A stretch of 64,000 nucleotides of DNA from Butyrivibrio sp. NC3005 (GTDB taxonomy: Bacteria; Bacillota; Clostridia; Lachnospirales; Lachnospiraceae): positions 128,022 to 192,021 of the forward strand of contig NZ_KE384206.1 of assembly GCF_000424545.1 (NCBI RefSeq), given 5' to 3'. Below, piece by piece: positions 43,481 through 56,490 of the stretch. Position 1 is the stretch's first letter; each line of letters begins with the position of its first letter. Both the position numbers and the translations under genes were made by a program. A model generated the notes under the pieces. That model saw only the letters and a list, made by a program, of their open reading frames with translations. It did no database searches and was not told where the DNA came from.

Positions 43481-45541
43481 ATGAGTGAACAAAATTTCGA
43501 TCCTATGACTGGGCAACCTATAGCTCCGGAAAATGATAATCTTGAAAATGGACAACAATCTAATACATTAAATACTGAGTCTAATTTAGAAAACGGCGGT
43601 TTCGATTCCATGACCGGACAGCCTATTTCTAGTAATGCTGGTTTTGATCCTATGACCGGTCAGCCTATTTCTAGTAATGCTGGTTTTGATCCTATGACTG
43701 GGCAGCCTATTTCCGGCAATGGCGGCTTTGATCCTATGACCGGTCAGCCTATTTCCAGCAATGCCGGTTTTGATCCTATGACTGGGCAGCCTATTTCTGG
43801 TAATACCGGTTTTGATCCTATGACCGGTCAGCCTATTTCTGGTAACAGCGGCTTCGATCCTATGACTGGACAGCCTATTTCTGATAATGCCGGTTTCGAT
43901 CCTATGACTGGGCAGCCTATTTCTGGTAATGCCGGTTTCGATCCTATGACCGGACAGCCTATTTCTGGTAATGCCGGTTTTGATCCTATGACTGGACAGC
44001 CTATTTCTGGTAATGCCGGTTTTGATCCTATGACTGGGCAGCCTATTTCTGGTAATGCCGGTTTTGATCCTATGACTGGACAGCCTATTCAGAACAACTT
44101 TAACGGAGCTGTTCCTCCTGCTCAAAGTGGTAAGAGCAACAAGAAAGCAGTTATTGCTGTTGTTTTAATTGTACTCTTACTTGTAGGTGCAGGCGCATTT
44201 GCAACAACTCGCATTATATCCAGCTTTAATGACAATAAGGAAACTTCAAGAGAAGTAACCAAGAAAAAAGACTCTTCTAATAAGAAAAAAGAAACCAAAA
44301 AGAAAGATGATGACAAAGAAATAGCAGTTGCATCAACAACCGCAACTACTGAAGATCTTGATGCCGTTAACAATGCTTCAACTGAAAGCACAACAACAGA
44401 TGAAGACGTAACATTAGGAAGTTCAACTGAGGCATCAACAGCAACAACTACTGTCAGTGATGATAATTTGTTCTCATTCACAATTGATGGTCAGAATTAT
44501 AGTCTTCCAGTAAAAGTTGAAGATTTCATGTCAAAGGGATGGCAGTATAATGAAGATTCTGATGCAACTAAAAAGCTTTCATCAGGTCAGACAGATTATT
44601 TAGACGTACTTTACAAAGATGATACATCTCACAGAGTATCCATAGAAGTTACAAACTTCTCTCTTAATGCAATGGAAGTTAAGGATTGCTACATTTCATC
44701 TGTATCTTTGTATGACTTCACATTTGATAAGATGGGCATAGAAGTTACTACTCATGGAGGTTCTGTTGTTCTTGGCAAAACAACAATTGATGAAATAAAG
44801 CAGATTTATGGTGAACCTGATTATACAAGTGATAGTTCTTCATCTTATACACATATTAGCTACTACCTCAACCATGATTCTTCAAACTACAATTCATCTT
44901 TATCATTCATGTTTGAAGATGATAAACCAGGCGTTGGTACAATTTCAGTAAAAAATGAAGTTAAGCCAGCAGACATGGAAGAAGCCAAAGTAAGTGATGA
45001 GAAGCCTGAATACCTTAGCCAATATAAAGCTCCAGACTCACTTGGCGATGATTTAGTAAGTGGCAATGTCACACTTGAAGGAAAGACATACTCTGTACCA
45101 TTCCCAATGCAGCTTCTTTTAGATGATGGTTGGAGCTATGGTAAAGATGATTCTTACAAGGTTGGTGCCGGAGAAGGTTATTCTGTATCCATGAAGAAGG
45201 GTGATAAACGTATCAATGTAAGTGCTTATAACTTATCTGAAAACGCTACATACCTTCAGAATACAATGATTACTTCAGTTACAGTACGTGATCATTCTAG
45301 TGCAAGCTTTGAATTACCTGGTGGAATAACTATCAAATCAAATGATAGTGATCTTAAGGCTGTATTAGATAAGCAGGGAATTACAAACTACAGATACAAG
45401 AAATCTTCTAAGTATTACACAATTCCACTTGATAAGAATGACACATCTGACTATCCTAAGGACTACATCAGAATCTACATCAATGATGATGGTTCATTTG
45501 AATCTATTCAAGTAAAAAACCTAGGTGCATTTAGAAAATAA
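43481..45541 (+). CDS. Membrane-anchored surface protein with tandem GFDPMTGQPI repeats
   Basis: I do not recognise this 686-residue protein as a named family. Residues 40-206 are twelve tandem 14-residue units of the form GFDPMTGQPISGNA, preceded by a lone copy at 5-14. One membrane helix follows (about 222-246, KKAVIAVVLIVLLLVGAGAF), then a Lys-rich and Ser/Thr-rich linker (250-330). Two related outside domains end the protein: one beginning near 331 (FTIDGQNYSLPVKVEDFMSKGW) and one near 529 (VTLEGKTYSVPFPMQLLLDDGW), apparently an internal duplication. There is no cleavable signal, so the repeats should be cytoplasmic and the paired domains outside, a layout known from Firmicutes zinc-ribbon/anchor proteins; here the repeats replace the ribbon. 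GGGAG supports the start. It has its own promoter and terminator. Confidence 0.75.
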   Translation: MSEQNFDPMTGQPIAPENDNLENGQQSNTLNTESNLENGGFDSMTGQPISSNAGFDPMTGQPISSNAGFDPMTGQPISGNGGFDPMTGQPISSNAGFDPMTGQPISGNTGFDPMTGQPISGNSGFDPMTGQPISDNAGFDPMTGQPISGNAGFDPMTGQPISGNAGFDPMTGQPISGNAGFDPMTGQPISGNAGFDPMTGQPIQNNFNGAVPPAQSGKSNKKAVIAVVLIVLLLVGAGAFATTRIISSFNDNKETSREVTKKKDSSNKKKETKKKDDDKEIAVASTTATTEDLDAVNNASTESTTTDEDVTLGSSTEASTATTTVSDDNLFSFTIDGQNYSLPVKVEDFMSKGWQYNEDSDATKKLSSGQTDYLDVLYKDDTSHRVSIEVTNFSLNAMEVKDCYISSVSLYDFTFDKMGIEVTTHGGSVVLGKTTIDEIKQIYGEPDYTSDSSSSYTHISYYLNHDSSNYNSSLSFMFEDDKPGVGTISVKNEVKPADMEEAKVSDEKPEYLSQYKAPDSLGDDLVSGNVTLEGKTYSVPFPMQLLLDDGWSYGKDDSYKVGAGEGYSVSMKKGDKRINVSAYNLSENATYLQNTMITSVTVRDHSSASFELPGGITIKSNDSDLKAVLDKQGITNYRYKKSSKYYTIPLDKNDTSDYPKDYIRIYINDDGSFESIQVKNLGAFRK
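43598..44098 (+). repeat. 42-bp tandem repeat array, 12 units
   Basis: In-frame units of 42 bp encode the 14-residue repeat; the last unit diverges after GQPI. Units differ mainly at silent positions (ACTGGGCAG, ACCGGTCAG, ACTGGACAG alternate), and the last five are nearly identical in DNA. That pattern points to recent amplification by slippage or unequal crossing-over. It lies within a gene and is not a CRISPR array because there are no spacers. Confidence 0.92.
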
Positions 45542-47139: not shown

Positions 47140-47268
47140 CATAGGTTATTGTTTTCATCAGGAAAACAGGTAACCGTACCAGACCAAAATTTGTCGTTAA
47201 GACAAATTTTGTCCTGCGAAGCAGGATTCTTGCTGATGATTATCCTAAATCTCAGCAAGAAGTCATAG
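47140..47268 (+). repeat. 129-bp structured intergenic repeat, copy 1
   Basis: This stretch equals the reverse complement of 56216-56344 at 124 of 129 positions. It contains module A (47140-47180), a perfect 10-bp hairpin around GTTAA (AAAATTTGTC with GACAAATTTT), a TCCTGC/GCAGGA hairpin and a 10-bp hairpin TTCTTGCTGA with TCAGCAAGAA. No reading frame is conserved. It lies in the 468-base gap between the channel gene (start 47043) and the exporter permease gene. Confidence 0.92.
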
Positions 47269-47303
47269 GTTCTTGTTTTCATCAGGAAAAACAAGAACCG
47301 TAT
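47264..47303 (+). repeat. Intergenic hairpin repeat, module A (extra copy)
   Basis: Immediately after the 129-bp repeat, and sharing its last five bases (CATAG), a further module A occurs. GGTTCTTG (47268-47275) pairs with CAAGAACC (47292-47299), with the inner TTTTC/GAAAA extension. CGTATCAGACCA after it corresponds to CGTACCAGACCA of the longer element, so this may be a truncated second copy. From 47311 to 47405 I see nothing recognisable. Confidence 0.85.
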
Positions 47304-47405
47304 CAGACCAATATTTATAATTAGAGAAGTTTTGTCCCAAAGAGCAATAAGTCGTAGTTTAGGTCAGTTTAATCTGTAATTTGAAATTACCATTAAGCAA
47401 AAAAT

Positions 47406-47438
47406 TTCGGGACGAATGTATTAAACAATCATCCCGAA
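47406..47438 (-). terminator. Intrinsic terminator after the exporter permease gene
   Basis: TTCGGGA (47406-47412) pairs with TCCCGAA (47432-47438); on the minus strand the stem is followed by ATTTTTT. It lies about 75 bp after the permease stop codon. Confidence 0.7.
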
Positions 47439-47511
47439 TTAGTTTACTAATTGCTATTTTCCTAAAACCATCTGCAGTGAAAGTTCAAGACGCTTTGGAT
47501 ATTTCGACATT

Positions 47512-49857
47512 TTACTTCAAATCTGAAATAACAAAAGCAGGTACTTCATTTTTATTAAAACTGAAGTTTCTATAATTTGAAATAGTTCTTCCTTCTTCGT
47601 CTTGAACAGGAATAATTACATTTTCTTCATCCGAATCTCTGCCATCATCATATCCATATTCATCATCATATCCATATTCATCATCATATTCGTCTCCATA
47701 CTCACTATCGTACTCATCATAACTGTCTTGATCTTCTTTATTGCTGCCAGAACTATTAAGCTCATTATCTTTTTCATTTTTATCTTTTTCATTTTTATTT
47801 TTTTCTTTTATAAGTTTATCTGTCAATTCTTTCCTTGACATATAATACATATTTATTCTGTAATAATCTTCAGAGCTATCGTCCTCCTCATCTGACATCC
47901 AATAGTTGCTACTATTTCCGTGAACATGAGATAATATTTCATGCATCTTATTCTCATCAGTGTAAGTGACAGTTTTATCTTTTATGTCTTCTCCATCTAC
48001 ATTTGAATAATGAGATATCGTTATAGCTTTCACATTATATGTACTTGCTTTCTGACTAAGCAACATACCATTTTGCTTTAACACATTTATAGAATTAGTA
48101 TATGAAGCATACACAGGAAGAGTGATGCTTCGTTTGCAATAATCCTTCTCTCCAGAGTATTGAACTTTTCCTATAATAAGATCATTTTTCTCTTTACTAT
48201 ATGAGTAACTTTCAAGATCTTTCTTGTAAGCTTTAACAAACTCTTTAACCGCACTTCTTTTAGTGCTATGAATAGATTCACCATAACTATGATATGAAAA
48301 GTCATGATTCTCCGGATATTCTTTCTCAAACTCATCTACATGATAAATCTTGAAAGCACCCTCTTTAAACTGGTTAGAGCTCGTAACCTTATCCATTAAA
48401 GCTTCATCTATGTTGAACGGAACCGTGATTACACGATATATCTTTCTTCCATTCTTCATTCTATATAAAACCACTAAATCATTACCATAGACCTCATTTG
48501 TAACTTTGTTTCTTTGTCCTACAGCTGCAATTCTTTCGAAGCTTTGAACATCAGTGATATTCATATATTTTTCTGCAAAGTATTTTGATATTCTCTGACT
48601 GTCACTAGCATACTCACTATTAAATAGTTCGTTATCGCTTCCATAGTAAGCATCGAACAGCGCACAACTTTCAACCTTAGATGGGTTTGGAAGATATGAA
48701 TTATATCCAAATAAATCAAGTCTAAATGAAATAATGAACACTGAGGCAAACACACAGCAGGCAAGTGTAAATTTAAAGTTCTTAAATAATGCTTTTACTC
48801 CATTAAGCAGTATAAGATTCATTATCATTGATATTATAAAGCATATAACAACAGTCACTAAAACCAGGAATACATTTGTTTTTATTCTATTAGAATCCTT
48901 GAACAGATAAATAAACATAAGCATTACATTAAGTGTTCCAAGAATAGTCACCGATACAAATGTAAACATTTTTACCTTGTTAAATACGAATGAATTCCCC
49001 GCCATTTCATTTTTCCTAAAATGAAAAATAACAAACGAAATTACTGTCATTACTATAGCAAAAACAATATCGTATAGTACTAACGAATTCTTCATGTCAT
49101 TATGTAAAAACACCTTAAGAAAAGGAGAAATGAAATTACACTCTTCGAACGTATTGTAAAAATTCAAGTAATATGTTTCGAAGCAGGCAGAAGGATAAAA
49201 ATTGCTTAATAAAAGAATATCTCCTTCTACCAAATTCAAAACTGTACATAGTAAAAGTGCAATAAATGAATTTCCACAAAGCATCATTGAAAATACAGTA
49301 ATCGAATAAATCGCTGCAAAAAAGGAAATTTCCTTAATAAAGTTACATACTACATGTATTATCAAATGATTGTAAAAATATCCAAAAAAGCCTGTACAAA
49401 CAAGTCCCAATAGGCAAAACAATGCTGCTGGAATCACGACCATAAGCATACCACTAAGGTAATTTGCAAACCATCTTATATTTCTTTTTACAGGCAAAGC
49501 CTCAAAAAAATCGATTTTCTGTCGATTATTCATCCAGTTAAAACTAAACACAGCAGACATAGCTGCAAGAACAACACACCCTAATATAGTTATTGTATTC
49601 CACTTGAACAGATACTCTTCAAATTTTGTAAAAGTATCAATTTCATAATCTACATCTGCTTTTATAAGCATGCAGCCTGTGCTGAGAATTCCAACATAAT
49701 ATAGAAAGAACAAAATAGAAACAATAATGATAAAAGCATTATGTTCTCTCATGAATTGCTTCTGCAAAGTTAAGAAATTTTTAAAACAGCCTGTCTTCTT
49801 AGGTTCATTTTGTGTAATACTCACATTATCACCCCTCAATAATCTTTCTGATGTCAT
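47512..49857 (-). CDS. ABC-2 type exporter permease (YtrC/D-like) with acidic tail
   Basis: A 781-residue membrane protein. About six N-terminal helices (40-400) carry text typical of the ABC-2 permeases beside YtrA-type regulators (FFEALPVKRNIRWFANYLSGM). A large outside domain follows (about 430-660). The tail is strikingly low in complexity: KNKNEKDKNEKDNE, then repeats of DDEYGYDDEYGYDD encoded by an 18-bp direct repeat (47641-47700). GGAGG nine bases upstream fixes the start at 49857 inside the ATPase gene, which it overlaps by 29 bp. With the ATPase and the GntR regulator it forms one operon; the substrate is unknown, antimicrobial peptide efflux being a frequent role in the family. Confidence 0.85.
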   Translation of the reverse strand: MTSERLLRGDNVSITQNEPKKTGCFKNFLTLQKQFMREHNAFIIIVSILFFLYYVGILSTGCMLIKADVDYEIDTFTKFEEYLFKWNTITILGCVVLAAMSAVFSFNWMNNRQKIDFFEALPVKRNIRWFANYLSGMLMVVIPAALFCLLGLVCTGFFGYFYNHLIIHVVCNFIKEISFFAAIYSITVFSMMLCGNSFIALLLCTVLNLVEGDILLLSNFYPSACFETYYLNFYNTFEECNFISPFLKVFLHNDMKNSLVLYDIVFAIVMTVISFVIFHFRKNEMAGNSFVFNKVKMFTFVSVTILGTLNVMLMFIYLFKDSNRIKTNVFLVLVTVVICFIISMIMNLILLNGVKALFKNFKFTLACCVFASVFIISFRLDLFGYNSYLPNPSKVESCALFDAYYGSDNELFNSEYASDSQRISKYFAEKYMNITDVQSFERIAAVGQRNKVTNEVYGNDLVVLYRMKNGRKIYRVITVPFNIDEALMDKVTSSNQFKEGAFKIYHVDEFEKEYPENHDFSYHSYGESIHSTKRSAVKEFVKAYKKDLESYSYSKEKNDLIIGKVQYSGEKDYCKRSITLPVYASYTNSINVLKQNGMLLSQKASTYNVKAITISHYSNVDGEDIKDKTVTYTDENKMHEILSHVHGNSSNYWMSDEEDDSSEDYYRINMYYMSRKELTDKLIKEKNKNEKDKNEKDNELNSSGSNKEDQDSYDEYDSEYGDEYDDEYGYDDEYGYDDGRDSDEENVIIPVQDEEGRTISNYRNFSFNKNEVPAFVISDLK

Positions 49858-50752
49858 ATCCAACCACCTCCGTTTCACTAATAAAGACTTCTTCTAGTGT
49901 CAAAGGAAGCATTTCGAAGAAAACCATTTTTAATCCTCGAAAAAGTCCCTCAATCTCTTCTCTACTACCTCTTAAAGTTAGTGTGTGGAGTTTTCCACGC
50001 TTATCATCAATCATTACAGTTGTTTTTGCTTTTAAACCTGATAAATCATTCTCATTCTCAAAAACACACTGAACTTTCTGAATACCCAGCTTCATCTCTT
50101 CAATATTTTGAGACAGTATAACACCGCCTTGATGAAGTAAACCAACATGATCGCAAATATCCTCTAATTCTCTAAGGTTATGAGATGCAATTATAGGTGT
50201 AAGTCCTCGTGTTTCCATATCATTAGCAAAAAGACTTTTAACCGCCTGTCTCATAACTGGATCAAGGCCATCAAATGTTTCGTCCAAAAAAAGATATTTC
50301 GTATTAGAACAAATGCCCAAAATACAAACCAGCTGTTTCTTCATACCTTTTGAAAAAGTAGTTATCTTTCTAACTTTTTCAAGACCAAATCTATCCAAAA
50401 GACTAAAAAATCTCTCACAGTCAAATTTTGGATAAAGGTCTTTATAGTAATTCATCATTTCTTTTGGTGTACTATTAGAAAAAAAGAACGGTTCGTCAGC
50501 ACCAAAGAAAATCTCCTTTTTAGCCTCAACATTATCATATACAGGCTGTCCATCCATAAGTATTTTTCCCTTATCAGGACGATAAATACCTGAAATAAGT
50601 CTCATCATAGTAGACTTACCTGCACCATTTGTACCAATCAAGCCAAATACTTCTCCGTCTGAAATTTTCAGTGAGATACCATTTAAAGCATTAATTGGAT
50701 TTTTCTTATCTCCAGTTTCAAAACTCTTAAATAAATCAACAATCTCAATCAT
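49829..50752 (-). CDS. ABC exporter ATP-binding protein (YtrB-like)
   Basis: A 307-residue ATPase with Walker A GTNGAGKSTMMRLISG near 41-48, a variant signature FSKGMKKQLVCILGI, Walker B YLFLDETFDGLDP and ASHNLRELEDICDH. The variant signature and FFGADEPFFFSN are usual in YtrB-type ATPases encoded next to YtrA regulators. It lies 55 bp after the GntR gene and overlaps the permease gene, so all three are co-transcribed. Confidence 0.92.
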   Translation of the reverse strand: MIEIVDLFKSFETGDKKNPINALNGISLKISDGEVFGLIGTNGAGKSTMMRLISGIYRPDKGKILMDGQPVYDNVEAKKEIFFGADEPFFFSNSTPKEMMNYYKDLYPKFDCERFFSLLDRFGLEKVRKITTFSKGMKKQLVCILGICSNTKYLFLDETFDGLDPVMRQAVKSLFANDMETRGLTPIIASHNLRELEDICDHVGLLHQGGVILSQNIEEMKLGIQKVQCVFENENDLSGLKAKTTVMIDDKRGKLHTLTLRGSREEIEGLFRGLKMVFFEMLPLTLEEVFISETEVVGYDIRKIIEG

Positions 50753-50768
50753 ACACTTTCCTCACATA

Positions 50769-50798
50769 TTGTCGCTATGTTTTTAAACGAAGTGACAA
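50769..50798. repeat. Short hairpin, TTGTCGCT/AGTGACAA
   Basis: TTGTCGCT (50769-50776) and AGTGACAA (50791-50798) pair over 8 bp with one G-T wobble. Following bases (AACG-AGTGACAAAAA-TAT pattern) resemble the right end of the element at 56350-56477, so this may be a reduced member of the same family. It lies between the GntR and ATPase genes. Confidence 0.55.
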
Positions 50799-50807
50799 AA
50801 ACTATAA

Positions 50808-51158
50808 TTATATCAATCCTTCCAACAAATCCTTTTTATCGATACCAATTTCTTCAGCCTCTTTCAAAATTTTCTCAATTTCGAGTCTGAGCTCTTTCTG
50901 TCTTTCCATTTTCAAAGACATATTACCACTTACAAAGTTTCCCCGACCTTTGACTGTATACAAAAATCCTGAACGTTCTAAAGCTGCATACGCTTTCTGA
51001 ACTGTATTTGGATTTGTAGACAGTTCAACAGCAAGTGATCTAACAGAAGGCAATTGCTCATTACTCTCCAAAACTCCATTTATAATCAGCTTTCTGAAAC
51101 CATCATAAATCTGTTCATAAATGGGGCGAGAATCTTGATAGTCGATATGAATAAACAA
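50808..51158 (-). CDS. GntR-family regulator, YtrA type
   Basis: A 116-residue repressor. The winged helix (about 8-75) shows PIYEQIYDGFRKLIINGVLESNEQLPSVRSLAVELSTNPNTVQKAYAALERSGFLYTVKGRGNFV, the GntR signature, and a short helical tail of about 40 residues replaces an effector domain, which defines the YtrA subfamily. Such regulators repress the ABC exporter genes that follow them. A palindrome overlapping its promoter fits autorepression. AAAGGAGCGAAG precedes the ATG. Confidence 0.93.
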   Translation of the reverse strand: MFIHIDYQDSRPIYEQIYDGFRKLIINGVLESNEQLPSVRSLAVELSTNPNTVQKAYAALERSGFLYTVKGRGNFVSGNMSLKMERQKELRLEIEKILKEAEEIGIDKKDLLEGLI

Positions 51159-51201
51159 TTACTTCGCTCCTTTCATTCTTGTATGAACTGTATTATTTGT
51201 G

Positions 51202-51241
51202 TTAGTACACTAATAATAGTTCCGTAATACAATTATGTCAA
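51202..51241 (-). promoter_or_regulatory. Promoter and candidate YtrA operator
   Basis: On the minus strand TTGACA (51236-51241) and TATTAT (51213-51218) are exactly 17 bases apart. TTAGT-AC-ACTAA (51202-51213) abuts the -10 element, and GTGT-TAGT-ACAC (51199-51210) is a second, overlapping palindrome. GTGTACTAA-type sites are known for YtrA-like regulators, so this is probably where the gene's product binds. The remainder of the 314-base gap up to 51472 shows only A+T-rich sequence and an AGGAGGAAG ribosome site for the next gene. Confidence 0.68.
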
Positions 51242-51472
51242 TAGTCAAAATAATATTTTTTCATTTACCTTGATAATAATCACTTTTTTACGTAAAATTA
51301 ATAATGTGGGTTCAATAATCAGACAATAAATCCGAAATAATACTAACTATAATAATTGTAAACAAAAGCATGAAAACAAAAACTATAGCTAATCAATCCA
51401 AACAATATAAGACATATTATTTTACAGAACTACAAAAAATACAAATATTAGGCAAATAATCAGGAGGAAGGT

Positions 51473-52441
51473 ATGTCTGATCTTATAAAAGTAAGTATCA
51501 TCATTCCAGCCTATAATTCAGAAAAAACAATATCTGCTACTTTAGATACGGTTGTAAAGCAAACACTTTCTGATATAGAAATTATCATTATAAATGATGC
51601 TTCCACTGACCGTACTATGCAGATTATTCAACGGTATCAGACGGATTATTCAGGACTTATTCACGTAATTGATTCCAAAGAACATAAAGGACCAGGCGGT
51701 TGCCGTAACCTCGGATTAAATGCAGCTAAAGGTCAATATATTGGCTTTGTCGACAGCGATGATTTTATAAATGCAAATATGTACAAAAAGCTTTATTCAA
51801 GGGCAATGGAAGGCGGTTTTGAAATCGTTGACTGCGCTATGTATGACCAATCTCTTGACAAAATCATCCTTCAGGCAAGTGATAAACTTACCGGTGTTTT
51901 AACTGATGAAAAAAGAAGCTATCTGATAAGTCTTGGAGGATACCTTCCGACAAAAATCTTTCACCGTAGACTTTTCGAAAATCCCCAAATTCGAATGAGG
52001 GAAAACTGCATATTGGAAGATTATGAAATAATGGCATATTTATACGCAAGAGCTCATAGTATAGGAAATGTTAAAGAGACTTTGTACCAGTATAATAATA
52101 CTTTCGGAGCCTCTACTAAGATTTCAAATCCTTCTGAATATATCAGAAATGTATCAGGTGCAATGCAAGCTCTATACAATACACTTTCACCGCTTCCAAA
52201 CTATGAGAACATAAGGCTTTCTGTAGAGTCTCAGATAAGTAAACTCTATTCCTATGGAATAGAAGTATGCATATTTATGGAACAAAAAGGTGATGATATT
52301 TATGCACCTATCCTAGAAAAAACACTATGCCTTTTACACAAAAAGTTAGTATATACACAATACGAAGAAAACCCTTTCACCACAATGCAGTTATCAGCTG
52401 ATGATATACAAATGCTTCATGAAAATGACGAAAAGTATTAA
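51473..52441 (+). CDS. Glycosyltransferase family 2
   Basis: A 322-residue GT-A enzyme: VSIIIPAYNSEKTISATLDTVVKQTLSDIEIIIINDASTDRT opens the nucleotide-sugar domain, GPGGCRNLGLNAAKGQYIGFVDSDD carries the metal-binding DSD, and ENCILEDYEIMAYLYARA holds the catalytic-region acid ED. There is no membrane helix. Sugar and acceptor are unknown. It stands alone with a good AGGAGGAAG site, not in a polysaccharide cluster, and is followed by the importer genes after 211 bp. Confidence 0.9.
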   Translation: MSDLIKVSIIIPAYNSEKTISATLDTVVKQTLSDIEIIIINDASTDRTMQIIQRYQTDYSGLIHVIDSKEHKGPGGCRNLGLNAAKGQYIGFVDSDDFINANMYKKLYSRAMEGGFEIVDCAMYDQSLDKIILQASDKLTGVLTDEKRSYLISLGGYLPTKIFHRRLFENPQIRMRENCILEDYEIMAYLYARAHSIGNVKETLYQYNNTFGASTKISNPSEYIRNVSGAMQALYNTLSPLPNYENIRLSVESQISKLYSYGIEVCIFMEQKGDDIYAPILEKTLCLLHKKLVYTQYEENPFTTMQLSADDIQMLHENDEKY

Positions 52442-52652
52442 ACAGTCCGCGTTTAAAACTGTCTATTTTCAATAGTCTTCTAAATGTATAAAACTGTAAA
52501 AACATAAAAAGTAAATTCTATAAATATTCATTTTTGTATTGATTTTATGCAACTATTGTGATTTAATATTTGTATATTTTTTCATGGCAAAATTAATATC
52601 ATTAATAATTATTTTTATTTTTTACATTAATTTCATAACAGGAGGATTATTT

Positions 52653-53396
52653 ATGAAAAAAAAGATTCTGTCTGCAATAATGGCTGTGGTACTTACTGCC
52701 AGTTTCTGCGCATGTGGAAAGTCAGGAAATGATGATAATACCATTACAATGGCAACTAACGCCGAATTTCCACCTTATGAATATCATGACAATAATAAAA
52801 TAGTGGGAATTGATGCCGAAATAGCTGAAGCAATTGCTAATAAACTTGGCTACAAACTTGAAATCGAAGACATTGCATTTGATTCCATTATTCCTGAGCT
52901 TTCCAGTAAGAAAGCGGATTTTGGCATGGCAGGAATGACAGTTACAGAAGATCGTAAAAAGAGTGTAGACTTTTCAGATTCCTATGCTTCTGCTCGTCAG
53001 TCTATTATTGTTCCTGAAAACTCATCTATTTCAGGTCCAGATGACCTTAAAGACAAGATTGTCGGTGTTCAGACAGGAACAACTGGTGATTTGTACGTAA
53101 CTGATGACCTTGGCGATGATCACGTTGAGCGTTATAACAAGGGAATGGAGGCAGTTCAGGCACTTGTACAGGGCAAAATTGATGCAGTTGTAATCGATAA
53201 TGAACCTGCAAAGGTGTTCGTATCTGAGAACAAGGGGCTTAAAATTCTAGATACTGCATATGCTGAAGAATCTTATGCTATTGCTGTAAACAAGGGAAAT
53301 ACAGAACTTCTTGACAAGATTAATAAAGCACTTGCCGAATTGAAAGAAGACGGTACTATCGATAAGATTATTGATAAATACATTACCGCCGAATAA
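52653..53396 (+). CDS. Amino-acid ABC transporter substrate-binding lipoprotein
   Basis: A 247-residue lipoprotein of the polar-amino-acid group (SBP_bac_3). The signal is MKKKILSAIMAVVLTASFCAC with the lipid-modified Cys at 19 or 21. The mature part shows ATNAEFPPYEYHDNNKIVGIDAEIAEAIANKLG, FGMAGMTVTEDRKKSVDFSDSYA and VGVQTGTTGDLYV, typical of glutamine- or cystine-type receptors. The ligand is not certain. AGGAGGA before the ATG at 52653 fixes the start; the upstream-extended frame is spurious. The permease and ATPase follow at once. Confidence 0.94.
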   Translation: MKKKILSAIMAVVLTASFCACGKSGNDDNTITMATNAEFPPYEYHDNNKIVGIDAEIAEAIANKLGYKLEIEDIAFDSIIPELSSKKADFGMAGMTVTEDRKKSVDFSDSYASARQSIIVPENSSISGPDDLKDKIVGVQTGTTGDLYVTDDLGDDHVERYNKGMEAVQALVQGKIDAVVIDNEPAKVFVSENKGLKILDTAYAEESYAIAVNKGNTELLDKINKALAELKEDGTIDKIIDKYITAE

Positions 53397-53420
53397 TTAT
53401 ATTACTAAGGACTAAGGAAC

Positions 53421-54113
53421 ATGTTTGAAAATTTCAGAGAACAGTTTATTTTAAACTTCATAGATGATAATCGTTGGCAGTATCTTACGAATGGTTTATT
53501 GCTTACACTTAAAATTTCTATTTTTTCGATTATCATAGGTATTATTTTAGGTTTTATCATAGCAGTTATTAAATATAGCCATGATAACAATGGAAATTGT
53601 AAGATACTAAATTTTATATGCGATATTTATCTTACTATTATTCGTGGAACACCAGTTGTTGTTCAGTTGCTCATAATATATTTTGTAATATTTGGCAGCA
53701 CACGAATTGATAAGTCATTCGTTGCTATCATTGCTTTTGGTATAAATTCAGGTGCATATCAGGCTGAAATATTCCGTTCAGGATTAAATTCAATCCCGCG
53801 TGGACAGTACGAAGCTGGAAGAAGCCTAGGTTTTTCATCTAATCAGACAATGGTAAAAATAATAATGCCTCAGGCAGTAAAAAATGTAATACCTGCTCTC
53901 TGCAATGAATTTATTTCTCTTATTAAAGAGACTTCTGTTTCTGGATACATAGCACTTGAAGACCTGACCAAAGGTGGAGATATCATTAGAAGCCGTACCT
54001 ACTCAGCATTTATGCCGCTTATTGCTGTTGCACTTACTTATCTTGTTTTAGTAATGATACTCACTCAGATAGTTAAGCATTTGGAAAGGAATCTTCGTAA
54101 AAATGAACGATAA
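53421..54113 (+). CDS. Amino-acid ABC transporter permease
   Basis: A 230-residue His/Glu/Gln/Arg-type permease with five membrane helices. The N-terminal [26 protein letters not shown] and the EAA loop [32 protein letters not shown] are diagnostic. It presumably forms a homodimer because only one permease gene is present. It starts 24 bp after the receptor gene and overlaps the ATPase gene by 11 bp. Confidence 0.94.
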
Positions 54114-54858
54114 TAATAAAGAGACCAAAGACACGCTTATACAGGTTAAAAACCTTTGCAAACAATTTGGCAAAAAGAAAGTTTTAAATGACATTACTGT
54201 CAATATAAATAAGGGCGATGTTGTATGCGTAATAGGACCGTCTGGTTCAGGAAAATCTACTTTTCTTAGATGCCTGAACAGACTTGAGACTCCGACATCC
54301 GGACAGATACTGTTCGACAACGTTGATATCTGCAATCCCAAGACAGATATCGACATTCATCGTCAAAAAATGGGAATGGTTTTTCAACAGTTTAATCTCT
54401 TCCCACATATGACCATTTTAAAGAACCTCACAATCGCTCCTATAAGCCTTCAGCACAAATCACAAGAGGAAGCTGAAGAAATGGCAATAAGCCTTCTTAA
54501 AAGAGTAGGACTTGAAGACAGAGTCAATTCATATCCAAGCCAGTTATCCGGCGGACAACAACAAAGAATTGCCATAGTAAGGGCTTTGTGTATGCAACCT
54601 GAAGTAATGCTATTCGACGAACCCACTTCTGCTCTCGATCCTGAAATGGTTGGTGAAGTTTTAAACGTAATGAAAGACCTTGCCAAGGAAAAAATGACAA
54701 TGGTTGTAGTTACTCATGAAATGGGATTTGCCAGAAATGTCTCTAATAGAGTAATGTTTTTAGATGGTGGAAATTTCCTGGAAGAAAATACCCCTTCAGA
54801 ATTTTTTGATCATCCTCAGAATGACAGAACAAAGCTATTCTTGAGCAAAGTTCTATAA
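54103..54858 (+). CDS. Amino-acid ABC transporter ATP-binding protein
   Basis: A 251-residue GlnQ-type ATPase: Walker [21 protein letters not shown]-loop [16 protein letters not shown], signature [20 protein letters not shown], Walker [17 protein letters not shown] and switch [12 protein letters not shown]. It completes the importer of 52653-54858 and is followed by a strong terminator. Confidence 0.95.
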
Positions 54859-54866
54859 ATTTTGTA

Positions 54867-54908
54867 AAGTTCTTGATTTCCTCAAAAGTGGAAATCAAGA
54901 ACTTTTTT
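54867..54908. terminator. Bidirectional intrinsic terminator
   Basis: Arms 54867-54881 and 54890-54904 pair perfectly over 15 bp around an 8-base loop, followed by TTTTTT on the plus strand. It lies between the importer operon and the converging gene ending at 54910. Confidence 0.92.
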
Positions 54909-54909
54909 G

Positions 54910-55647
54910 TTATTTTTTGGCTCTTCTCCTAATTGATTTTATATTCGTATTTCTTTTTCTTCCTCTTCTTCTTGGATTCTTACTTTTTCTATATTCTTTA
55001 ATTTCTTTAAGTATCTTCTCTTCGTTTCTGTTAAGAAGAATACTGCAGATTTCGGGCGAGAGTTTTTCTATATCTATTCTAGTTTGTGGAACTTTTATAC
55101 TATCATCAGTTTGTTTTAACTGCTCTAATCTCTTAATTTCAGTTTTAGGAAGAGGAAGTTTGGTCCATTCTATGATCTTTTTTATAAGAAAAGGCTTACT
55201 AGACGATGAATACTTTGGCATATTGTGATTTTGCAAAACAACATTAAATTCAGGACGCCATAATAGCTCTAACTTCCTTTCAATAAGTGCTTTATCATTC
55301 TTTGCCGGCTTTCTAAGAAAATAGAAATCAACTCCTTCTTCAATTTCATCTATCGTTATGATTCCCCAGTGTTTTGGTACATGTTCTTCAATATGAAATG
55401 CATGAGAACTTCCGACAGCCACAATATTATAATCAAAAATGGTATCATAATCTTCTGTCTGACTTGAAAGACGAGCATATGTATCAGCATCAGATTTTAT
55501 CTCTACACCGATAAGAGCATTGCTTGTTATTACTAATAAATCTGCTCTGGAATTACCAATCATCTTCTCTTCTATGATTTTTATCTTTCCATATTCGTGC
55601 TGCAAAAAAAGCCCCAAAGGCTTTCTAATATCCTTATCAAGTAGCAT
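54910..55647 (-). CDS. sce7726-family protein, PD-(D/E)XK nuclease-like
   Basis: A 245-residue protein. RADLLVITSNALIGVEIKSDADT has the nuclease-fold pattern D-(x)n-ExK with D36, E49 and K51, and the wording matches the sce7726 group, whose function is unknown. The C-terminal 30 residues are extremely basic (RKSKNPRRRGRKRNTNIKSIRRRAKK-like composition), suggesting nucleic-acid binding. The ATG overlaps the GNAT stop codon (TGATG), with GGGAG seven bases upstream; this start is preferred to 55686. The two genes are translationally coupled. Confidence 0.8.
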   Translation of the reverse strand: MLLDKDIRKPLGLFLQHEYGKIKIIEEKMIGNSRADLLVITSNALIGVEIKSDADTYARLSSQTEDYDTIFDYNIVAVGSSHAFHIEEHVPKHWGIITIDEIEEGVDFYFLRKPAKNDKALIERKLELLWRPEFNVVLQNHNMPKYSSSSKPFLIKKIIEWTKLPLPKTEIKRLEQLKQTDDSIKVPQTRIDIEKLSPEICSILLNRNEEKILKEIKEYRKSKNPRRRGRKRNTNIKSIRRRAKK

Positions 55648-56144
55648 CAATCTTCTCCCTGCCTGTCTATAATAGTCTCCATGCATATCTTCTGAGGTCT
55701 TAATCCCATTTTCTCATAGAACTTTTTTGCAGAAGGATTGCATGACCAAACATTTAATGTGATATTATAAAATTTCATTTCTTTTGCAAATTGATGAATA
55801 TGCTCATATAGAATTTTCCCGACATTTTGTCCTCTGCATGTTTCATCCACGCAAATATCATCTATGTAAAGAGTTCTCACATCAGTCAAAACGTTATCAT
55901 TAACAACCTGCTTTTCAATACAAAATCCATGGGCACAAACGTAGTCATCCTCATTCACGCATACGAAAACAAACATCTTATCATCTTTTAAAATATTACT
56001 TAACTCAGCTTCGTTATATTTAGTAGCCGGTCCCTTGAACAAATCCGGTCTCCCATTATGATGAACCATATCAACTTGGACAAGTAAATCCAATATACGC
56101 GGAATATCTTTTTCATTTGCTCTTCTAACTGTATACGTACTCAT
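55647..56144 (-). CDS. GNAT-family N-acetyltransferase
   Basis: A 165-residue acetyltransferase. YTVRRANEKDIPRILDLLVQVDMVHHNGRPDLF opens the fold and DICVDETCRGQNVGKILYEHIHQFAKE holds the acetyl-CoA loop R/Q-x-x-G-x-G/A; NVWSCNPSAKKFYEKMGL ends it. The acceptor is unknown; the N-terminal text is common in Lachnospiraceae acetyltransferases. GGAGGAG places the start at 56144. It is coupled to the downstream sce7726-type gene by a 1-bp overlap. Confidence 0.9.
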   Translation of the reverse strand: MSTYTVRRANEKDIPRILDLLVQVDMVHHNGRPDLFKGPATKYNEAELSNILKDDKMFVFVCVNEDDYVCAHGFCIEKQVVNDNVLTDVRTLYIDDICVDETCRGQNVGKILYEHIHQFAKEMKFYNITLNVWSCNPSAKKFYEKMGLRPQKICMETIIDRQGED

Positions 56145-56215
56145 ACTTTTCTCCTCCACTTTTTGACGCTTGTCAGCATACAAATCACCATGTGATTTAC
56201 GCGATTTATTATTAT

Positions 56216-56344
56216 CTATGACTTCTTGCTGAGATTTAGGATAATCATCAGCAAGAATCCTGCTTCGCAGGACAAAATTTGTCTTAACGACGAATTTTGG
56301 TCTGGTACGGTTATTGATTTTCCTGATGAAAACAATAACCTATG
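56216..56344 (-). repeat. 129-bp structured intergenic repeat, copy 2 (inverted)
   Basis: The reverse complement matches 47140-47268 at 124 of 129 positions with no gaps; four of the five differences are adjacent, in the right arm of the module A hairpin. Here that arm restores perfect pairing (GGTTATTG with CAATAACC). The element fills part of the 388-base gap between the GNAT gene and the DJ-1-type gene. Confidence 0.92.
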
Positions 56345-56349
56345 ACTTC

Positions 56350-56477
56350 TTGTCACTTACATTCAGAAACTCGCATTTACTGCGAGTTTCGTGAGAACAA
56401 AAGTCAAGTGGCAAACTGGTTCAAGGCGAAGCCTTTTCAAATGACCAGTTTGCGTGGTTTTTAGAACGTAGTGACAA
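56350..56477. repeat. Branched inverted-repeat structure
   Basis: TTGTCACT (56350-56357) pairs with AGTGACAA (56470-56477), closing a 128-base region. Inside are two perfect hairpins: GAAACTCGCA with TGCGAGTTTC (56366-56390), and CAAACTGGT with ACCAGTTTG (56413-56453), which holds a further AAGGC-GAA-GCCTT hairpin. No gene is present. It follows copy 2 of the 129-bp repeat directly. Confidence 0.8.
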
Positions 56478-56490
56478 AAATCTATGCTCA

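Follow-up and report, generated by a model that had tools for sequence, protein, structure and literature searches.

What kind of element is a 129-bp repeat that occurs twice, in opposite orientations, in one stretch of a Butyrivibrio genome? The window (the whole stretch of DNA analysed, 64,000 nucleotides of Butyrivibrio sp. NC3005) contains the copies at 47140-47268 (+ strand) and 56216-56344 (- strand), and the preliminary description left open whether they are MITE-like, REP-like or a structured RNA family. Its basic observations were reproduced. The two copies are identical at 124 of 129 positions (96.1%) with no gap by blastn. Each forms four hairpins, with z between -8.3 and -9.0 on either strand of both copies, and 0 of 200 shuffled sequences were equally stable. 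The copies are non-coding: among open reading frames (ORFs) of at least 80 aa, one reaches three bases into copy 1 with its 5' end (47140-47142), and copy 2 overlaps none. The gene downstream of copy 1 is one that we take to be ClC-like, and that downstream of copy 2 is a GNAT gene.

Family A elements in the window

Within the 129-bp repeat, the mobile unit is the core AGrTT...AAGTC, which measures about 122 bp and has AT at each edge. We refer to this unit as family A, and to two further repeats with similar ends as families B and C. The following features were recognised.

47143-47264, + strand: core of family A copy 1 (AGGTT...AAGTC), AT at 47141-47142 and 47265-47266; based on sequence, unoccupied sites in relatives and 114 copies
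56220-56341, - strand: core of family A copy 2, AT at 56218-56219 and 56342-56343; 96.1% identical to copy 1
47267-47353, + strand: decayed second unit in tandem with copy 1, AT 47265-47266 common to both; 84% identity to query bases 1-75 by blastn
56344-56483, + strand: family B repeat member, 140 bp; based on sequence and length, inverted repeats and recurrence in the home genome
45689-45722, + strand: palindromic copy of hairpin 1 only, AGGTTCTTG...CAAGAACCT, AT on either side; 27 bases at 96% by blastn

The fold consists of HP1 (GGTTATTG...), HP2, HP3 (TCCTGCGAAGCAGGA) and HP4 (TTCTTGCTGA...TCAGCAAGAA), and a 3-bp helix, GAC/GTC, closes around HP2 to HP4. The decayed unit, whose right limit was set by eye, has lost most of HP3 and HP4. 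A second copy of hairpin 1 only, with AT on both sides, was found at L059. At L057:3403-3440 only HP4 remains, as a long hairpin without mismatches that runs into T-rich sequence and may act as a terminator. A peptide repeat of GFDPMTGQPIS type is also encoded in the window, in tandem at 43592-44089, in the early part of a 686-aa ORF.

Copy number and distribution

Searching the 3.87 Mb of the home genome for a 17-base right-end pattern, with up to one mismatch, gave 130 occurrences (66 + 64) against 0 in the control; the count may take in HP4-only remnants. Right ends thus lie some 30 kb apart on average, and the inverted pair in the window, between which recombination might invert the 9-kb block as suggested in the preliminary description, is not special. 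A blastn search for further copies had been proposed, and in the home genome it returned at least 46 matches among the best 40 of 217 candidates. Two home-genome copies stop exactly at contig ends (C39 and C34).

The 129-base blastn query matched 4 of 61 genomes, the home genome being among the 61. A covariance model, which had also been suggested, was built from 21 copies of two species and matched 19 of 79 genomes of the genus including the home genome (18 of 78 others) at E <= 0.001. The richest were G020, G084, G073 and G023, with at least 41, 15, 13 and 11 matches, respectively; these counts are lower bounds from stricter filters and the best 43 candidates per genome. Two Pseudobutyrivibrio genomes, G103 (P. 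ruminis SIG311) and G104 (RGIG4783), had 14 model matches apiece. A pattern of 20 fixed letters detected at least 57 loci, nearly all in Pseudobutyrivibrio or Butyrivibrio, and 54 of the 57 contained a covariance-model match (L111, L127 and L157 did not). Phage, plasmid and viral collections gave no match to the element, the viral scan being one exact pattern.

Insertion sites and target duplication

Unoccupied counterparts were recovered for 9 of 38 tested sites and were not found for the other 29. The tested sites comprised 11 from G103 and G104, whose joined flanks were searched in both genomes, and 27 further Pseudobutyrivibrio sites, whose flanks were joined with one AT at the joint and searched in 29 genomes. 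Full-length junctions were obtained for six of these 27 (L105, L149, L114, L120, L141 and L131), some weaker L105 matches in further genomes being left out, and the other 21 showed no unoccupied junction across the 29 genomes. The six sites are clean: identity is 91-99%, the alignment is ungapped across the junction, and a single AT stands in place of the AT-core-AT of the occupied site. The alignments of L149 and L120 have gaps farther from the junction, and the unoccupied L120 junction reads AT in three of four genomes and TT in one. Between G103 and G104, the L174/L197 and L173/L198 sites are compatible with loss or gain of core plus AT, the former with one base changed and the latter with a diverged left flank; the L175/L196 site exceeds the length expected from AT by one base. 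These two genomes are about 95-96% identical where loci align, and two matches in the fetched loci are at the identical place in both. The L191/L168 locus has a model match in both genomes with a different make-up.

The single AT in the six unoccupied sites versus AT-core-AT in the occupied ones therefore indicates insertion with a 2-bp AT duplication at Y-AT-R, which is the target duplication that the preliminary description had proposed to look for in the flanks. The occupied site is Y-AT-core-AT-R and the unoccupied site is Y-AT-R. Because several genomes are unoccupied at some sites, insertion is the simpler reading, and the direction of change was probably insertion rather than exact excision.

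The same boundaries were seen in 114 distinct full copies, which were chosen by a pattern that excludes the flanks. AT flanks both sides in 103 of 114 copies, and the core is 122 or 123 bp long in 103 of 114. The dinucleotide before AG is AT in 108 copies and GT in 2. At lone junctions, Y occupies -3 in 79 of 83 and R occupies +3 in 65 of 70. The candidate terminal inverted repeats are a short, imperfect match by eye (AGrTTyTTG / GACTTCTTG).

Arrangement, genomic context and families B and C

In 56 of the 114 copies another element adjoins through AT. Tandem copies are spaced at 124 bp, that is 122 + 2, and tail-to-tail pairs (L155 and L123) overlap likewise, with one AT in common. The family B member at 56344-56483 is joined to copy 2 via AT 56342-56343, has a further AT at 56484-56485, and ends in GACTTCTTGTCACTT and, inward from the right, a AGATTTTTGTCACTAC-like sequence. 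Family B, seen also at L065:4498-4842 and L066:5264-5709, has internal hairpins and A-like ends and is chained to family A through AT. Family C, the most classical MITE of the three, measures 193-280 bp in five copies and has the ends ACTTTATTGTTT or AGATnATTGTT with AT adjacent. Its short copies (193-194 bp) are at L063:6653, L066:18450 and L065:4643 and its long copies (279-280 bp) at L062:8434 and L059:4062, an internal module being optional. Both families recur in the home genome, and their ends resemble those of family A.

Genomic context was read from ORFs in 850,775 bases of the home genome, which held 25 matches of at least 100 aligned bases. All 17 copies with ORFs on both sides sit between ORFs; the other 8 of the 25 matches, with no ORF on one side, were left out of the count. 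Between co-directional ORFs, 6 of 14 copies had the same sense as the genes, and thus no preferred orientation was seen in this small sample.

Conservation of the hairpins

The claim that structure is kept was borne out. Compensatory change was found in 35 of 37 pairs (both sides vary), compared to a shuffled mean of 21.1, and 0 of 500 shuffles reached 35. These counts come from a model-fitted alignment of 87 distinct rows, which leans toward structure; 94.7% of its cells pair, and pairing drops to 42-56% when the partner is moved one to three columns along. The same hairpins could be recognised by eye when 31 chosen representatives were aligned on sequence alone. HP2 is wholly different in sequence between lineages yet still paired.

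We also compared G-U with A-C appositions to see which strand the pairing favours. When 42 representatives, including a few that match poorly, were aligned on sequence alone, G-U versus A-C was 161 versus 77 over all helices, and 75/12 in HP1, 54/34 in HP2, 4/4 in HP3, 15/12 in HP4 and 13/15 in the closing helix. For 35 of the 42, the + strand has the more stable fold. In a strand-neutral count, HP1 gave 28 versus 7 (22 lineages versus 3, with 12 ties), and HP2 (5 versus 2) and HP4 (3 versus 5) showed no strand bias; for HP1 and HP4 this count covers 37 of the 42 representatives, five having been dropped because their start was unrecognised. The ratio of 263 versus 25 on the model-fitted alignment is inflated by the model fit. 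In view of this inflation and of the strand-neutral count, the claim for RNA was lowered. For HP1 alone, the substitutions suggest that selection acts on one strand, among lineages that are non-independent.

Search for the mobiliser

No autonomous parent with the same ends was present in 1,743,021 fetched bases (overlaps counted twice). Since most of the home genome was unread, family A is filed as MITE-like and not as a MITE. A scan of the fetched bases found 16 end pairs with ORFs between element-like ends; none of these 16 ORFs matched a transposase or recombinase in Pfam, the matches being transporters, enzymes and similar, and five matched nothing. The Y1_Tnp family had 10 matches in the home genome and occurred in 4 of 6 other genomes, with 0 matches in G103 and G104, whose assemblies may be incomplete. 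The ten home-genome Y1 loci (1.6-3.4 kb each) held no element copy by blastn. DDE_3 had matches in 2 of 8 genomes, above the cut-off in 1, with the same reservation about assemblies. A multi-copy IS200-like Y1 element was seen in the home genome at L043, L046, L047, L048 and L050, several copies being cut by contig ends. Among 20 small home-genome contigs, 16 (C78-C93) consist of N only, so repeats or insertion sequences there are invisible, and the four readable ones were inspected for ORFs and ends only cursorily.

Two names were considered and set aside. An IS630-type MITE was rejected because the duplicated pair is AT and not TA and because of the sparse DDE_3 matches. The name RAGATH-19 (RF03096) was not used because its scores fall below the gathering cut-off of 85.6 bits. 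Home-species copies gave full-length, sub-threshold hits (26.5 bits, E 0.029 in the window; 30.8 bits, E 0.0042 at L002). In stretches of the same size, the diverged member L074 gave nothing, and L105 scored 18.2 bits, on the opposite strand. There, an unrelated Vibrio family scored E 1.2e-6, a measure of how much weight E-values of this kind can bear. RAGATH-19 was found in 0 of 61 genomes in a scan whose controls were silent too, and larger scans without it prove little because their stricter filters missed even L002.

Alternative explanations

We consider it very probable that family A, found in Butyrivibrio and Pseudobutyrivibrio, represents MITE-like transposable elements that are non-autonomous and moved in trans with duplication of AT. 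The elements are short, multicopy and free of any ORF of 80 aa, and the unoccupied sites, the 2-bp duplication, the high copy number and the many relatives uphold the mobile, MITE-like part of the preliminary description. Several observations weigh the other way: no mobiliser emerged from the scans above, Y1 and DDE_3 fit poorly, the terminal inverted repeats are short and imperfect, 29 of the 38 sites lacked an unoccupied counterpart in the genomes searched, and of the nine recovered sites L175/L196 is off by one base and L173/L198 has the diverged left flank. The REP-like part was not upheld. An element of REP/BIME type, for which a Y1 transposase (RAYT or IS200) moves single-stranded DNA, would account for hairpins at both ends, intergenic placement, modular arrays and the Y1 matches of the home genome and four others. 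However, Y1 is absent from G103 and G104 despite their differing insertions (again with possibly incomplete assemblies), the ten Y1 loci contain no copy, and a GTAG tag is not the rule. IS200/IS605 elements are not known to leave a duplication, and a 2-bp duplication is unexpected on this account, which we regard as very unlikely. That the pair reflects local duplication or an assembly artefact would fit the two window copies and nothing beyond them; the 130 right ends and the relatives in many assemblies refute it, and we give it practically no weight.

It is improbable that family A is primarily a structured RNA gene or cis-regulator that host selection has multiplied, its mobility being secondary. 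The covariation, the G-U excess at HP1 and the greater stability of the + strand are in favour of this reading, but more than 100 copies, insertions that differ between close genomes, the absence of orientation preference in the small sample, HP2 and HP4 without strand bias, and no Rfam family above cut-off in the window argue against it. A 2-bp duplication could be left by a serine-type recombinase as well as by a DDE transposase whose cuts are staggered by 2 bp. Integration by a serine recombinase or an IS110/IS607-like enzyme, with AT as crossover core and participation of the folded strand, is somewhat less improbable than the other alternatives but still doubtful: the common 2-bp core, the chains, the folded strand and the poor fit of DDE_3, the one DDE family tested, speak for it, whereas the targets have little in common beyond YATR and the ends are inverted-repeat-like.

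Under the favoured MITE-like reading, a trans-acting transposase or recombinase would recognise the ends AGrTTnTTG...CAAGAAGTC and insert the core, usually 122-123 bp long, at Y-AT-R so that AT remains at each edge. Every insertion would regenerate Y-AT-R at its edges, and thus more A copies, and B and C members, could pile up head-to-tail or inverted while sharing one AT. Families A, B and C may be served by one mobiliser, and the + strand in its folded form, whether RNA or single-stranded DNA, may matter for spread or tolerance. A bolder version is a long shot: a four-hairpin RNA or single-stranded DNA from each copy might be read by a trans-acting recombinase to cut and join at Y-AT-R, the family then being a mobile non-coding RNA gene and A, B and C separate substrates or guides of one enzyme.

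Relation to known elements

Family A works like BOX, RUP, ERIC and Correia in being small, structured, intergenic and gene-free. RUP and Correia elements are about 100-150 bp long, duplicate TA and are linked to IS630; family A shares their size, a 2-bp duplication and many copies but duplicates AT. ERIC, at about 127 bp, is similar in length. According to PMC10969869, ERIC has structured transcripts, is intergenic and varies from 30 to 711 copies by lineage; it shares intergenic placement with family A and has other hosts. BOX of Streptococcus pneumoniae is described in PMC3049150 as short, present in many copies, modular, strongly base-paired and held to be non-autonomous and parasitic. Family A has the same four properties of size, copy number, modularity and pairing; BOX differs in its variable number of boxB modules and its proposed mobiliser ISSpn2 (PMC3049150), compared to four hairpins, AT duplication and other hosts in family A. 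REP/BIME elements with RAYT are palindromic, intergenic and clustered according to PMC3733652, as is family A, which differs in the tag, duplication and Y1 distribution given above. Butyrivibrio is unmentioned in the main texts of PMC10969869 and PMC3733652, and a search of open-licence literature found no publication on such an element in Butyrivibrio or Pseudobutyrivibrio. The family itself is new and the kind of small mobile element is already known, BOX and ERIC being compared by description only.

Repeats of the family A type may also break assemblies. The mobiliser should be findable, given that close genomes differ in their insertions, that the target is short and defined, and that three families have like ends. 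On the usual view, a small non-autonomous element requires scarcely more than its ends. The four-hairpin interior of family A has been rebuilt pair by pair in two genera, which raises the question of what the folded form does.
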